The translations under genes were made by a program, and so were the position numbers. Below are positions 2,960-20,672 of a stretch of DNA of 20,672 bases, in pieces (the first letter of the stretch is position 1; each line of letters opens with the position of its first letter). The notes beneath the pieces are model-generated. The model was given only the letters and a program-made list of their open reading frames with translations, did no database searches and was not told the origin of the DNA. Source of the stretch: an uncultured Collinsella sp. (GTDB taxonomy: Bacteria; Actinomycetota; Coriobacteriia; Coriobacteriales; Coriobacteriaceae); NCBI GenBank assembly GCA_900553165.1, contig USCN01000004.1:1-20672 (forward strand). The letters are read 5' to 3'.

Positions 2960-3178
2960 CTACTCTGCAGACGAAGATCCACCATCAACGATTGCCTGCT
3001 CGGACTCAGGAATCCCATCGGCGCCCGTGCTCTGTTCTTGCTCCACCTCTTCGCTGATTGCGGAGGCGGGGGTCGAGCCCTTCGCGCCCACGATGTAGGC
3101 AGCTCCAAACCCTAACGCAATGGCAATCAAGGTCAAAATCACGTAGACAGGCCAATGGCGCTTAATATACGAAAACAC
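2960..3178 (-). CDS. Small single-span membrane protein
   Basis: A 72-residue protein of unknown function. The start is GTG at 3178, chosen because AAGGAG lies five bases upstream. Residues 1-9 are basic (YIKRH), residues about 10-32 form one hydrophobic helix containing a GFGAAYIVGAKG stretch, and the remainder is an acidic, Ser/Glu-rich tail (EEVEQEQ, ending SSSAE). This predicts a membrane anchor with the short basic end inside and the acidic tail either outside or as a flexible appendage. It starts 21 bp after the stop of the M28-like membrane protein on the same strand, so the two are probably co-transcribed and may act together at the membrane. No family is recognised. Confidence 0.75.
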   Translation of the reverse strand: MFSYIKRHWPVYVILTLIAIALGFGAAYIVGAKGSTPASAISEEVEQEQSTGADGIPESEQAIVDGGSSSAE

Positions 3179-3199
3179 GTTGACTCCTTAGAGCTCCGT

Positions 3200-6100
3200 C
3201 TACGAACGGCGGATAACCTCGGTCACGACCTCGGATACCGTGGCAATGTTCGTCGGGTTGACATTGTGGGGCAGGTCGTCCTCGGTACGAGCACAAGCCA
3301 GGCGCGTGCCGTCCACGCCGGCGATGGTGAGGGCTCGGCGGCTCGCCTCGAGCGCGGCATAGGCATCGGTCTTGGCATAGGGCATCTCGAGCGCGCCACA
3401 ATCGACATGGAACGACTTGCACACCTTGCTGACCAGGTTCATGATGCGGCGATCGCCCTTGAGCAGCTGCTGTTCGCCCTCAACCGTCACCACCGAAAGC
3501 CTACCGGCGCCGACGGATTCAAGATTGATGAAGAATACGCCGCGGAGCTTATCGCGATGCGAAGCCAAGAAGGCCTTCATGCCGGCGCCATCACAATCCG
3601 AGGCGCCCGTTGCCACAAACCAGATATCGTGACCGAGCAGCTCATCGTCACCCATAGAGGCGACAGCCGAGAGCATATCTTCGGAAGAAGCGCCGTCGGA
3701 AGACGTAGCGCCGCCCTTCCAGCCATCGTTATCGTCCTCGAAATTATCCCACGAACCGATGCCGCGACCGGACTTCTTGGCATCGTAATCGTCTTCGACG
3801 CCCAGCCAGTCACTCATGCTGTTCTGTTCGTTTTTCTTTTTACGACCGAACAGGCCGCCCAGGCCGCGCTTGCGAGACTTGGGTGCCGCAGGGGCGGGAG
3901 CCGAAATGGTCTCGATCGGCTGTGCGCCCGACGCAACGGGCATAGGAGGCGCAACGGGTGCCGATGTGGGTTCGGGACCCTGGGCGGTAGCAAAGGGGTC
4001 GTTGACCTGTGCGGAGGGATCGGGAAGGTCGAACAGCGACGTGCGAGACGCAACGTTTGTCTGCTTCATCGACGGCAGCGACGGATCGGGGACCGAAGCC
4101 AGCGGAGACGAGGAGGGTGCAGGCGACGGTGCCGACGCCGGATCGGGAACATTCATCTGCGGACGCGGCGATGCTTGGGAGGAAATCTGGGCCATAAGGG
4201 AATCGACCGTTTCGTCCTGGGTGGGAGCGACATTGGCAACCGTGGCACCGGAACCACTCGGGGTCGGCATGGTGAAAATCTGCGTGGAGTAAGGCCTCGA
4301 CTCATCCGTCTCGGGAGTCTCGGAAACCGCAGACACTTCCTCCTGCTCGACCTCGGTCGAATCATCTTGCTCGGCTGCCGCGTACTGCTCTTCGTCAGAG
4401 TTGACCTCGACGGGCTCGTCCTCGGTCGCATCCTGAATTTCGGCAGCATCAATGGGCTCGCCATCGCCCGCCGCGTCGTCCTGCTCATCGGAAGCAGGAA
4501 GGGGCTCGGCAATCGCGGTACCTTGCTTTTCAAACGTTATCGTGGAATCGAACTGCGCGGCATCAAACGACATGGTGCTATCGACGTGCTGCTGAGCCTC
4601 GAAAGACGTTGTAGCTTCGGCAGCGTCGACGGGTACGGACTGCATAGCCTCGTTCTGCTCGAACTCTTGCGCCGCGCGCTCACGTGCCGCCTCGGCCGCC
4701 TGCTGCTGAGCGATAGCCTCCTGCTCGGCAGCCTCGCGTGCGGCAGCGCGCTTCTCCTCGAAATCGTCGATAAATTTCTTGCCCTTTGCAAGCGCACCCT
4801 TAAAGAAGTTGGAAGCGCTGGCGCCAATCGACGAGAACGCGGATGCAATGTCGGCATGGGGCGTTGCCGCGGGAATCTCGGCCGAGAAATCAGTATCGCT
4901 CTCGTAAGACACGCGCCTCGGCTGTTCAACGTAATCGTCGTCAGACTCGTCCGCAACGTCTTGCGCCGGCGCGGCGGGAGCCAAAATGTCCAGTCCTGCC
5001 GCGGGATCGATCGCGGACCCCGCCTCGGGCTCGGCAACGGCAGCGGCAACCGCGGCAGACTCATCATCCACGGTGACAGCGGGCGCAGGTGCAGCCACGA
5101 CGGGGGCAGGCTCGGGCTCAAACGTCGGCTCCTCGCCCTCCTCGTAATCGAGCGTGCAGGACTCGGGAAGCATTCCGAGCGCACGGATGGCATCCGAACC
5201 AAAGCGGATGTTGCCGGCGGCATTGCGATAGAGCTCGGGCTCGGGCTCGGCCGCGACAGGCTCCTCCACCGGCTCGGCAGCGGAAACCTCGTCATTGAAC
5301 TCTTCGGCCTGGACAGCCTGATTCTGATCCTCGGGCACAATGGCGCCAATCAGCGTCTCGTCGGCAGACGCACCCTCAAAGCCCTCGATCTGCTCGTCGA
5401 AAGCCTCGCCCCGTTCGGGCTCGGTTTGAGCGTCGGGAGCAATCGGCTGCCCGAACTCGTCCTCAGCGTAGGTAGGCTCTTCATACTCGATGGTGTTGCC
5501 GTAGTCGTTTTGCTGCTGGGCCGCGGCATACTCCGCCGCTGCGCGCGCCATTTCCTCGGCACGACGCTTCTGCTCCCCAAAATAGGTATCGAACGGAACA
5601 TCGTCGGGAAACTCGTTTTCGCCCTGGAAGGGAGCAACGTTGTCCATAACGCCGAGCATAGCGGCGACAGAGGACTTGTTGCACACCGCGCCGGACGTAT
5701 AGGGAAGAATATGGCGGTTAAAGATGATGTTTGCCGCGTTGGCAAGTGCAACGAGGGAAGCGAGGATCGCGACAATCCACAGCAGAACCTTGAGCGCGCC
5801 GGGGAGCGGCAGAATACGCAGGATGGCAACGGCAGCGGGGGCAACCGTGGCAACGGGCAACAGCTTGGCGATGAGTGCACGATACGAAGCATAAGGCTCG
5901 CGGGCGAGCAGCTCAGCACGGGGAGAGTCGTAGTGTGCGACAACGACCACCGGGCGGTTACGCGGGGACGCGAGCGGGCCCGAGGCCTTGTGGTAGGCGA
6001 TGACATTTTGGCTCACGCCCGTCTTGCCCAGGCGCGAAACCACGGGGTGGCCCGTGCGCTCGAGCACGTAAAGAACGGCGCCGACAATGGCCAGCAAGGT

Positions 6101-6346
6101 GCCGACCAAGCCGATACCGCCGCCGATGCCCATCAGCAGGGCGCCGGCAAACGCAAGAATACCGGTAACGGCAAATGCCAACCTACTGGGCGCCGGGGCA
6201 TTGAACTCCTGAACCTCGGGGTCAAAGCCGTGGTTGCGGAAGATCTGAGCGATATCTTCGGCAGCCAAGCGCTCTTCTTCGCTGCATGCCGGCGTAATGC
6301 CGGTGTTCTGCAGCAGGTGGTTAATATAGTTCTGGGTGTTCGCCAT
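3200..6346 (-). CDS. Membrane M28-like (pseudo)peptidase with giant acidic insert
   Basis: A 1,048-residue protein. The ATG at 6346 is chosen over an upstream extension because the M28-like N-terminus begins there and GGAG precedes it. The N-terminal part (1-50) resembles the start of M28 aminopeptidases. Hydrophobic segments near 54-94 and 163-208 suggest about four membrane spans. Between them lies VVVVAHYDSP with H138 and D140, the M28 zinc-His motif. GAVCNKSSVA (219-228) matches the zinc-Asp motif but has Cys222. Residues about 240-890 are a low-complexity insert rich in Glu, Ala, Pro, Asp and Ser. The fold resumes at about 898: GASD (914-917) sits where the catalytic Glu-Glu pair is expected, INLES has E943, and LPHN has H1027. 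The metal and catalytic set is therefore incomplete, so the protein may be a pseudopeptidase or a regulated scaffold. Assignment to M28 is by motif alone. A small membrane protein follows in the same operon. Confidence 0.8.
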   Translation of the reverse strand: MANTQNYINHLLQNTGITPACSEEERLAAEDIAQIFRNHGFDPEVQEFNAPAPSRLAFAVTGILAFAGALLMGIGGGIGLVGTLLAIVGAVLYVLERTGHPVVSRLGKTGVSQNVIAYHKASGPLASPRNRPVVVVAHYDSPRAELLAREPYASYRALIAKLLPVATVAPAAVAILRILPLPGALKVLLWIVAILASLVALANAANIIFNRHILPYTSGAVCNKSSVAAMLGVMDNVAPFQGENEFPDDVPFDTYFGEQKRRAEEMARAAAEYAAAQQQNDYGNTIEYEEPTYAEDEFGQPIAPDAQTEPERGEAFDEQIEGFEGASADETLIGAIVPEDQNQAVQAEEFNDEVSAAEPVEEPVAAEPEPELYRNAAGNIRFGSDAIRALGMLPESCTLDYEEGEEPTFEPEPAPVVAAPAPAVTVDDESAAVAAAVAEPEAGSAIDPAAGLDILAPAAPAQDVADESDDDYVEQPRRVSYESDTDFSAEIPAATPHADIASAFSSIGASASNFFKGALAKGKKFIDDFEEKRAAAREAAEQEAIAQQQAAEAARERAAQEFEQNEAMQSVPVDAAEATTSFEAQQHVDSTMSFDAAQFDSTITFEKQGTAIAEPLPASDEQDDAAGDGEPIDAAEIQDATEDEPVEVNSDEEQYAAAEQDDSTEVEQEEVSAVSETPETDESRPYSTQIFTMPTPSGSGATVANVAPTQDETVDSLMAQISSQASPRPQMNVPDPASAPSPAPSSSPLASVPDPSLPSMKQTNVASRTSLFDLPDPSAQVNDPFATAQGPEPTSAPVAPPMPVASGAQPIETISAPAPAAPKSRKRGLGGLFGRKKKNEQNSMSDWLGVEDDYDAKKSGRGIGSWDNFEDDNDGWKGGATSSDGASSEDMLSAVASMGDDELLGHDIWFVATGASDCDGAGMKAFLASHRDKLRGVFFINLESVGAGRLSVVTVEGEQQLLKGDRRIMNLVSKVCKSFHVDCGALEMPYAKTDAYAALEASRRALTIAGVDGTRLACARTEDDLPHNVNPTNIATVSEVVTEVIRRS

Positions 6347-6544
6347 GTGCGCTCCACATCCATAATCCGACAAATAGGCCCAATGCATGCACATTAGAAC
6401 CGTATATAGTCGAAAGTATACCCCGAGCGAGCGCAAACGACCGAATTCGGGCCATCTTAACGCCCCGAGCGGACAAGGATATAGCCTAATCTCCATATCG
6501 GACTAAAATCATGGCAGCAAACCACCTTCTCATGCGAGGACTCT

Positions 6545-13477: not shown

Positions 13478-13493
13478 CGTTTCATGTGAAACA
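13478..13493. other. Degenerate parS-like site
   Basis: CGTTTCATGTGAAACA differs from the perfect parS 16-mer found at 15640 at two positions (first base and position 8). It lies between the rlmN stop and its terminator. ParB often tolerates one or two mismatches, so it may be a weak secondary site; binding is not shown. Confidence 0.4.
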
Positions 13494-15639: not shown

Positions 15640-15655
15640 TGTTTCACGTGAAACA
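15640..15655. other. parS: parS site 1
   Basis: A perfect TGTTTCACGTGAAACA palindrome, the conserved chromosomal ParB-binding site. It lies 40 bp upstream of the parA start codon. Confidence 0.95.
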
Positions 15656-15678
15656 TTCCGAATCGATATCAACCGCCA

Positions 15679-15694
15679 TGTTTCACGTGAAACA
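15679..15694. other. parS: parS site 2
   Basis: A second perfect TGTTTCACGTGAAACA, starting exactly 39 bp after site 1. Confidence 0.95.
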
Positions 15695-15717
15695 CTGCAA
15701 GTTGTTAGTATCCATTA

Positions 15718-15733
15718 TGTTTCACGTGAAACA
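15718..15733. other. parS: parS site 3
   Basis: A third perfect copy, starting exactly 39 bp after site 2 and ending one base before the rsmG stop codon. Confidence 0.95.
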
Positions 15734-18764: not shown

Positions 18765-18794
18765 ATTGTAGGGAAATCAATGTTCAAATGTCAA
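18765..18794 (-). promoter_or_regulatory. Promoter of the rpmH operon
   Basis: On the minus strand a consensus TTGACA (-35, 18794-18789) is followed after 18 bases by TACAAT (-10, 18770-18765). This is a strong vegetative promoter, with a predicted leader of about 65 bases before rpmH. Confidence 0.85.
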
Positions 18795-19037
18795 GAAATC
18801 AAAGGTAAAAGGTTGCGCAGTTCACACGGTTCCCCCATAAGCACAACCGAAATTTGCGCCTCATGGCAACCTTTCACGATATTTCATCGAGTTTTCAACA
18901 GGTCATGTTGGCAATGTTGAGAACTTTTCGCCCATTTTCCAAAGTTTTCAACAAGTTTTGAAAAGTTGTCGAAAGATGAGAAACGTTGCACGGTGAGCTA
19001 CTATTTGTTCGAAACCTTTTGAAAGATTGCGAGCGGC
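18795..19037. other. oriC: Probable origin (oriC) segment with DnaA-box-like cluster
   Basis: A non-coding region between the divergent rpmH and GHKL-ATPase genes, AT-richer than its coding flanks. It holds 9-mers resembling DnaA boxes: TTTTCAACA at 18892-18900 and 18945-18953 (plus), TTGCCAACA at 18906-18914 and TTCTCAACA at 18915-18923 (minus), and looser TTTCGACAA at 18966-18974 and TTTCGAACA at 19006-19014 (minus). Around 18945-18964 there is an inverted repeat, TTTTCAA-CAAGTT-TTGAAAA. The position between rpmH and dnaA is where many bacterial origins lie. None of the boxes is the canonical TTATCCACA, so the species consensus would have to be TT-T-CAACA-like. TACTAT at 18999-19004 could be a -10 box for the downstream gene but lacks a -35. 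Confidence 0.6.
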
Positions 19038-20390
19038 ATGTCTGACGACTTTTACACCATGGTCGATTCCGGAGACCCGGCACCCGACAACGAGCACATC
19101 ACCGGCGTGCGCGAAGAGCGTGCGGAAGGCGAGCAGACGACCACGCAGGCGCCAAAAGCCATGTACGCCGCGCGCATCGCCGTCTATGACGACATGCTGT
19201 CGACACCGCGGGTGATCGTCATTGATCCGCAAGATGTCCGCACGTATTTGGAAGAGACGACCAACACCGTCTACCAGTGCATGAAAGAACAAGGTGGCCA
19301 TATCTCGCTCATGGTCATCCGCGAGATTGTCGAAAACTTTATCCACGCACACTTTGCCGAGCCCATCATCTCGATTCTGGACGGCGGAGACACCATCCGC
19401 TTTGCTGACCAAGGACCCGGCATCGACGACAAGGAACGTGCTTTCGACTTTGGCGTTACCAGCGCAAACAGCAAGATGAAGCGCTATATCCGTGGAACCG
19501 GAGCAGGGTTTCCCATGGTGCAGGAGTATTTGGAAAACGCCGGCGGTGCCGTATCCATCGAGGACAACATGGGCAACGGCACCGTGGTTACGGTAAGCCT
19601 GAACCCTAAACGCGTGCAGGAAATCGAGCGTGCCGGCGGACGCGGCGCTGCCGTGCGGCCCGAGACGGAGCAGCCCACATATCCCCTGCCGGGAGCTTTT
19701 GCGCAGCAGCCCATGGCAACGCAGCAGATGCAGCCCCCCGCGGGACAGATGCAGCAGCCCGGAATGATTCCTACACAAGAGCCCCAGGCGGCATCGATGT
19801 CGATGCTGCCAAGCATGCCAGAGGCCGTGCCGCTGGCGGATCAGGATGCAGCAGCAATGCAGCAGGCGACGGGCGCACCGGGTGGCCAGCAAATGGGCTA
19901 TCAGCCGTACCAACAAGGATATCCATATCAGCAGATGCCGCCACTGGGGTACGGCCAGCAGTTCCCGCAGCAGTACCAGCAAGGATATCAGCAGCCGTAC
20001 CAGCAGATGCCGCAGCAGCAGTACAACCCCTGGGCCCAGCAGATGCCTCCGCAGCCTTACCAACAGTGGCCTCAAAGTTTTCAACAGCAAATGCCACCGA
20101 TGCAGAGTTCTCAACAACCAGCAGCTCAAATGATGTATCCTAATGCAGCAAATCAGCATGCGCAGCCACAACCGGACGTGTTCGTAAGCGATCGCGGCAA
20201 CGCCGCGCTGGGCTATCTGGCGCAAAATCAAGCGTGCGGTGCAACCGATCTGGCGAGGGCGTTTGGAAACTCGGCCCCCACTTGGTCACGCACGCTCAAT
20301 GACTTGGCGCAGGCCGGCTTGGTCATCAAGCATGGCCAGAAATACCATCTGACCGAACTCGGCGCCGCTCGCGTGCGAGCTCAGAGCTAA
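19038..20390 (+). CDS. GHKL ATPase with Gln-rich linker and winged-helix domain
   Basis: A 450-residue protein of unknown function. Residues about 58-190 form a GHKL/HATPase fold: N box REIVENFIHAHF (E97, N100), G1 box FADQGPGI (123-129, D124), G2 region RGTGAGF (152-158) and GNGTVVTVSL (179-188). No histidine phosphoacceptor/dimerisation domain and no membrane span precede it, so it is not an ordinary sensor kinase. Residues about 205-380 are low complexity, rich in Gln, Pro, Met, Tyr and Gly (YQQGYPYQQMPP-like repeats). Residues about 383-450 look like a MarR-type winged helix (NAALGYLAQNQACGATDLARAF, NDLAQAGLVIKHGQKYHLTELG). The ribosome site is weak (GAGCGG). The next gene, probable dnaA, starts 15 bp downstream, so the two are likely co-transcribed. 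It could be an ATP-dependent DNA-binding regulator of replication or transcription; this is inference from domains and place. Confidence 0.85.
   Translation: MSDDFYTMVDSGDPAPDNEHITGVREERAEGEQTTTQAPKAMYAARIAVYDDMLSTPRVIVIDPQDVRTYLEETTNTVYQCMKEQGGHISLMVIREIVENFIHAHFAEPIISILDGGDTIRFADQGPGIDDKERAFDFGVTSANSKMKRYIRGTGAGFPMVQEYLENAGGAVSIEDNMGNGTVVTVSLNPKRVQEIERAGGRGAAVRPETEQPTYPLPGAFAQQPMATQQMQPPAGQMQQPGMIPTQEPQAASMSMLPSMPEAVPLADQDAAAMQQATGAPGGQQMGYQPYQQGYPYQQMPPLGYGQQFPQQYQQGYQQPYQQMPQQQYNPWAQQMPPQPYQQWPQSFQQQMPPMQSSQQPAAQMMYPNAANQHAQPQPDVFVSDRGNAALGYLAQNQACGATDLARAFGNSAPTWSRTLNDLAQAGLVIKHGQKYHLTELGAARVRAQS
19902..20045 (+). repeat. Imperfect YQQGY/PYQQMP-coding repeats
   Basis: The linker of the GHKL-ATPase gene contains related units, for example 19902-19941 (coding YQPYQQGYPYQQMPP-like) and 19974-20013 (YQQGYQQPYQQMPQ), with a further QPYQQWPQ unit downstream. 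They share a CAAGGATATC core and a CAGCAGATGCCGC end. Such tandem units tend to vary in copy number between strains. Confidence 0.7.
20078..20116 (+). other. Second DnaA-box-like pair, inside the GHKL gene
   Basis: TTTTCAACA (20078-20086) and TTCTCAACA (20108-20116) match two box variants in the upstream intergenic cluster. The 13-mer AAAGTTTTCAACA at 20074-20086 is identical to 18941-18953. They lie in a locally AT-richer piece of the linker, about 300 bp before dnaA. Confidence 0.4.
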
Positions 20391-20405: not shown

Positions 20406-20672
20406 GTGGACGAGGAAGCAAGCATCATCCTGGGGGATGCCATCGCCTTTTGCCAGCGCGACGGCCAAGATGCACGCCTCATCAACATGCTGGGGCAATC
20501 GCGCGCCATAAGCCTGACCGAAGATGCGCTCACGATCGAGGCCCCCTCGCGCTTTGCCATCGCGCAGCTCAAAAAGCATCAGCCGACTATTGAGGCCTAT
20601 CTGGAAGAAATCGCCTTTGCACCGATCGCGCTCGACATCGTAGCACCGCAAGGCGCCGCGACGGAATCCGCT
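20406..20672 (+). CDS. dnaA: Probable replication initiator DnaA, N-terminal part (cut by window edge)
   Basis: The first 89 codons of a gene running off the right edge. The GTG at 20406 follows GGGAGAG. The visible part (LTIEAPSRFAIAQLKKHQPTIEAYLEEI region, about residues 40-68) resembles DnaA domain I, in which a beta strand is followed by a basic helix and a helix ending in EE. The diagnostic AAA+ and DNA-binding domains lie outside the window. The identification rests mostly on place: beside rpmH, an origin-like region and parABS. The domain I is divergent, without the usual Trp near the start. If DnaA, it opens the origin and starts replication. It lies 15 bp after the GHKL-ATPase gene on the same strand. 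Confidence 0.7.
   Translation, partial: MDEEASIILGDAIAFCQRDGQDARLINMLGQSRAISLTEDALTIEAPSRFAIAQLKKHQPTIEAYLEEIAFAPIALDIVAPQGAATESA

Follow-up and report, generated by a model that had tools for sequence, protein, structure and literature searches.

A GHKL ATP-binding-type protein with its own winged helix, encoded directly before dnaA in many Actinomycetota, as a predicted regulator of replication initiation

Here we analyse a gene at positions 19038–20390 (plus strand) of a 20,672-nucleotide stretch of DNA from an uncultured Collinsella sp. (assembly GCA_900553165.1, contig USCN01000004.1; the whole stretch is hereafter called the window). The gene lies directly before dnaA in many branches of Actinomycetota. 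Judging by its sequence, the product, P0001, is a stand-alone GHKL ATP-binding-type protein with its own winged-helix DNA-binding-type domain. The most likely reading, to which we give about an even chance, is that of a predicted ATP-gated DNA-binding regulator of replication initiation. The protein family appears to be undescribed despite its central place: it was matched by no curated full-length family, and no paper on this gene was found, judging by titles and the starts of abstracts.

The gene is a single open frame with an ATG start that encodes 450 residues. In Pfam, P0001 matches HATPase_c at residues 93–189 (E = 1e-10, above the cut-off) and winged-helix families at residues ~385–444, the best being HVO_A0261_N (1.3e-7), followed by MarR_2 (2.3e-4), both below the curated cut-offs; no histidine-kinase dimerisation domain is among the 10 families found at E ≤ 1e-1. 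These matches agree with the original prediction, made from the DNA letters, of a GHKL domain without a kinase dimerisation domain and with a MarR-like winged helix. The hallmarks of the GHKL superfamily are all present, namely the N-box Asn, the G1 DxGxG, the G2 GxGxG and the HATPase fold, the last taken from the model of an ortholog. Across 28 sequences from the phylum, the Glu, Asn and His of the N box, the Asp and glycines of G1 and the glycines of G2 are invariant. In GyrB, MutL and Hsp90 the general base is a Glu placed four residues ahead of the N-box Asn, and SpoIIAB has this Glu too. Because the N box of this family carries that Glu, ATP hydrolysis is probable.

The two domains are joined by a linker (residues 206–378, 173 in total) composed of 29% Q, 18% P, 11% A and 9% M. 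It had been put forward as a prion-like part of the architecture; the Q/P-rich linker is real, but it is mostly an elaboration of Collinsella's order and not a defining part. Outside the class Coriobacteriia, most genomes have ~80–110 residues after the GHKL domain (one has 148); in Collinsella's order this region can be as long as 311. The structure model of the window protein, built on 36 similar sequences (82–99% identity), gave a predicted local distance difference test score (pLDDT) of 84–93 for the winged-helix block and below 50 for the GHKL part, and the GHKL fold was therefore modelled on a compact ortholog. The best structural match to the ortholog's GHKL part was PDB 3lmm, a DIP2311-like protein; sensor histidine kinases ranked top in Foldseek. 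In the VIA-align lists all matches except 3lmm were to winged helices, so that the absence of other GHKL families from them is uninformative.

The 20 nearest loci in named genomes (81–98% identity) all carry the name Collinsella, many of them C. aerofaciens. A full-length search found matches in 36 of 39 relatives at E ≤ 1e-3, four of which (G023, G033, G035 and G039) had only ~1e-5 matches resembling ordinary kinases, leaving 32 of 39. With the 147-residue GHKL domain as query, 264 of 296 genomes of the class gave one match each at E ≤ 1e-12, and 119 of 296 genomes drawn from the phylum gave a match at E ≤ 1e-10 (26 from the class, 93 from outside). The position of the gene was determined for 115 genomes, of which 65 belong to the class and 50 are among the 93 from outside. 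In 107 of these, dnaA follows on the same strand, with the open frames at most 400 bases apart and a median gap of 3; in six, the gene sits at the end of a closed chromosome whose other end starts with dnaA. As for single genomes, the dnaA match in G086 reaches only 6e-6, and in G204, viewed at this end of the contig only, the gene's frame ends 11 base pairs (bp) from the contig's end. Even in the weakest family, f43, the gene adjoins dnaA in 10 of 10. With no counterexample among the 115 genomes, chance linkage is rejected. A lack of conservation beside dnaA in relatives, which would have counted against the original prediction, was not what we saw: the neighbourhood is kept far beyond Coriobacteriia-type genomes. 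Family proteins also occur under the names Aquicultor, Oleimmundimicrobium, Solincola, Thermoleophilia and Miltoncostaeales, and single records labelled Firmicutes, Armatimonadota and Bathyarchaeia may be binning errors.

Genomes without a match were inspected as well, 33 in all. They comprise 13 of the 32 in the class draw and 20 of the 177 in the phylum draw; unlisted genomes were passed over, as were seven class genomes on the list whose completeness was 59–87%. Nine of the 33 also have no DnaA match at 1e-20, and therefore the region is probably missing from those assemblies. The other 24 have dnaA and show no GHKL match above 5.0 bits in these loci, which rules out a mere assembly gap as the general explanation; two of the 24 offer little or no upstream sequence, one starting inside dnaA (L177) and one having 300 bases (L170). 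Five such loci were viewed over a larger stretch: DnaA boxes are present between dnaA and the rpmH side, rpmH was identified in four of the loci, and no open frame like the gene occurs in between. The rpmH–dnaA gap in G184 is 1.4 kb, and its small open frames are unlike the gene. Since loci with dnaA hold neither a GHKL match nor a resembling open frame, some lineages truly lack the gene.

In the window, dnaA starts with GTG at 20406 on the same strand, 15 bp past the stop of the gene, and the two probably form one operon. An array of DnaA-box-like sequences lies upstream of the gene at 18892–18974, and an alignment of 14 sequences from the genus shows its positions and spacing to be preserved for the most part. 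The predicted placement between an origin-like region and dnaA, 15 bp away and in the same direction, agrees with these coordinates and this array. Over the whole window, TTTTCAACA has nine matches at no more than one mismatch against 3.57 expected (the maximum of 100 shuffles is 7); five of the nine fall outside 18892–18964, three of them inside the gene. The fourth box of the array could overlap the −35 element of a putative operon promoter. The Collinsella locus has yidC, jag, gidB, parA and parB on one side and dnaA, dnaN and dciA on the other.

Conservation was compared over 69 loci. Averaged over pairs, identity is 0.448 in the GHKL domain and 0.406 in DnaA, with a correlation of 0.63, and the GHKL domain is the more conserved of the two in 63% of pairs.

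From these observations we propose how the protein would act. ATP binding, probably followed by hydrolysis, would change its dimer state; the dimer state would set winged-helix binding at the oriC/dnaA promoter region just upstream; and dnaA expression, or DnaA assembly, would then follow the nucleotide state. Among known DnaA regulators, Soj, YabA, SirA, DiaA and Hda have folds that differ from this family, and the likeness is one of proposed role only, the control of initiation.

Several points weigh against the proposed regulation of initiation. First, no operator was found: the 7- and 8-mers and palindromes that are enriched before the gene across 69 relatives mainly represent DnaA boxes and the beginning of rpmH. 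The candidate operator ACAGATGT was rejected, as in most of its 12 places it is the middle of paired DnaA boxes, and so was the paired-box dyad, which occurs with the gene in 42 of 74 stretches (mean length 489 bases) and without it in 9 of 19 (mean 1014). Second, the scan found no sigma-70-like promoter before the gene on the plus strand. Third, the recognition-helix sequence is unlike between Collinsella and the compact forms, and among pairs with a DnaA identity of 0.4–0.6 it is DnaA, not the GHKL domain, that is better conserved. Fourth, the GHKL fold was modelled for an ortholog and not for the window protein. Fifth, the gene is missing from part of the class and much of the phylum. Finally, linkage can reflect co-expression without any action on initiation.

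This last point leads to the possibility of a conventional transcription factor, whose regulon would lie elsewhere (e.g. nucleotide or stress genes) and which would be transcribed with dnaA for growth-rate coupling. The winged helix appears to be of an ordinary MarR/TrmB/Csa3-like type, though set behind a GHKL domain and, in P0001, scoring below curated cut-offs, and no gene-specific operator was found at oriC, both as expected of such a factor. However, the linkage to dnaA, kept in all the genomes tested in class and phylum, is tighter than expected of a general regulator, and we regard this explanation as unlikely.

We give a similarly low probability to a partner of DnaA that acts by protein contact, in which the GHKL domain would bind or phosphorylate DnaA or the helicase loader DciA, as a SpoIIAB-type switch or a Hda/DiaA-type factor, the winged helix serving only as a tether to the origin. 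The family resembles the SpoIIAB/RsbW anti-sigma serine kinases in its small stand-alone GHKL domain, whose N-box Asn is likewise preceded by a Glu at a distance of four residues. Weak matches were obtained to the SpoIIAB model, by 19 of 28 members, and to SpoIIAB chains, at ~7e-5; for the equivalog TIGR01925 the first member scores 23.4 bits against a cut-off of 135. Unlike those kinases, the family has its own DNA-binding domain, and the Collinsella locus showed neither a sigma factor gene nor one for an anti-anti-sigma factor; of the SpoIIAB-like switch suggested by the original prediction, what stands is the shared Glu. A second argument for contact comes from families f1 and f5, where both neighbours changed: most members have a long linker, and DnaA domain I is barely detectable at ~3–15 bits, as opposed to ~80–118 in most genomes outside the class and 48–58 in f42, by a home-made model for whose training half of the compact long DnaAs were used. 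In Pfam, DnaA_N was found in 7 of 10 scanned DnaAs and missed in L156, L014 and L031. However, the comparison of linker length with domain I is confounded by descent; the parallel change may be a single lineage event, since low scores are also seen in f5 members whose linkers are fairly short. Separately, we observe that Pfam detects no domain I in the Collinsella-type DnaA (L031:7369–9090 and relatives), whose ATPase domain is preceded by a long region.

The nearest PDB sequences are sensor histidine kinases (WalK, KinB, HK853), which share the G1 and G2 boxes; unlike them, the family has no dimerisation or phosphoacceptor-His domain in Pfam (P0001 and the families shown for 28 members), no sensor part and no response regulator seen beside the gene. 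The original prediction did not recognise the architecture, yet the order of GHKL domain then winged helix recurs in DIP2311-like regulators (SLFN_AlbA_2, HATPase_c_4 and winged helix; PDB 3lmm), with a colinear profile match to the family; a clear match to a known kinase or regulator family was not found at any curated full-length cut-off. Taken together, the original prediction is supported in part: linkage to dnaA and the lack of a known-family match held for the predicted feature, while the novelty of its domain order and the defining role of the linker did not.

That the gene is a diverged DIP2311-like (COG2865-type) regulator, which lost AlbA_2, became fixed at this locus and kept that family's function (to our knowledge unsettled), is very unlikely: SLFN_AlbA_2 is neither among the 10 Pfam families of P0001 nor among those shown for 28 members (25 of 27 families), the GHKL part scores with HATPase_c and not HATPase_c_4 (PF13749) in both sets and is nearest by sequence to histidine kinases, identity to a Collinsella DIP2311-like protein is 17–23% in six members, the family is compact, single-match in the class and tied to dnaA, and Collinsella has separate DIP2311-like proteins elsewhere. 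These AlbA_2 and HATPase_c_4 proteins (L203:541–2004, L206:1297–2574 and L207:988–2550) include some with a recognisable winged helix. A defence system was discarded, as the PADLOC matches are at the winged-helix level only.

Table 1. Features of the gene and its surroundings in the window
Feature	Position	Strand	Description and basis
Promoter-like element facing rpmH	18765..18794	-	TTGACA-18-TACAAT; one site found (11 of 12), as many as expected by chance; conserved across aligned relatives
DnaA-box-like TTTTCAACA	18892..18900	+	motif scan and alignment
DnaA-box-like TTCTCAACA	18915..18923	-	motif scan and alignment
DnaA-box-like TTTTCAACA	18945..18953	+	motif scan and alignment
Fourth box position	18966..18974	-	plus strand TTGTCGAAA here, TTGTTGAAA in most aligned relatives
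GHKL-winged-helix protein gene	19038..20390	+	450 residues, P0001; open frame, Pfam and relatives
GHKL ATP-binding domain	19161..19601	+	residues 42–188; 147 residues, gap-free across 19 sequences of the order
N box E96-x3-N100-x2-H103	19323..19346	+	invariant in alignments
G1 box DQGPGI	19407..19424	+	residues 124–129; D and two G invariant in alignments
G2 box GTGAG	19494..19508	+	residues 153–157; three G invariant in alignments
Q/P/A/M-rich linker	19653..20171	+	residues 206–378; composition; pLDDT below 50; long mostly in Collinsella's order
Intragenic DnaA-box-like TTTTCAACA	20078..20086	+	in linker coding region; motif scan; C. aerofaciens group
Intragenic DnaA-box-like TTCTCAACA	20108..20116	+	motif scan
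C-terminal winged helix, MarR-like fold	20172..20387	+	residues 379–450; Pfam and structure model/comparison
dnaA, start	20406..20672	+	window ends inside dnaA; counterpart in L031 is DnaA by Pfam

Further observations concern the boxes and the rest of the window. The two intragenic boxes (20078–20116) are possibly a second origin element before dnaA. Their nine codons are invariant in 17 C. aerofaciens-group sequences and the codons between them vary, which is only suggestive, since the gene has other low-variation stretches. At oriC across the phylum, back-to-back DnaA boxes (TCCACA, 2 or 3 bp, TGTGGA) are a recurrent feature whether or not the gene is there (upstream stretches in L107–L153 and L159–L178). 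Between parA and gidB, at 15640–15733, there are three perfect parS sites (TGTTTCACGTGAAACA) whose starts are 39 bp apart, and a copy with two mismatches lies at 13478. At 3155–6496, a minus-strand gene of 1098 residues with an M28 peptidase match overlaps a plus-strand frame of 1080 residues without a Pfam match, the latter probably a spurious antisense frame. The large open frame at 3–2903, with five SpaA-type prealbumin-fold stretches, likely encodes a pilin or adhesin.

DnaA regulators are specific to their lineages, and beyond model organisms few have been identified. A single-match protein of ATP-binding and DNA-binding type that many families of one phylum keep fixed at the dnaA locus is a direct candidate for such a regulator, and a GHKL-winged-helix architecture that has been little understood so far is now placed at the chromosome origin. 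More tentatively, and with less than even confidence, we suggest an undescribed control of initiation on the scale of the phylum: a GHKL clamp that hydrolyses ATP, has a DNA-binding domain of its own and is conserved at about the level of DnaA in the Actinomycetota that carry it. The clamp would read the nucleotide state at oriC and gate DnaA. If this is true, the absence of the gene from other parts of the phylum would mark a changeover in initiation control.
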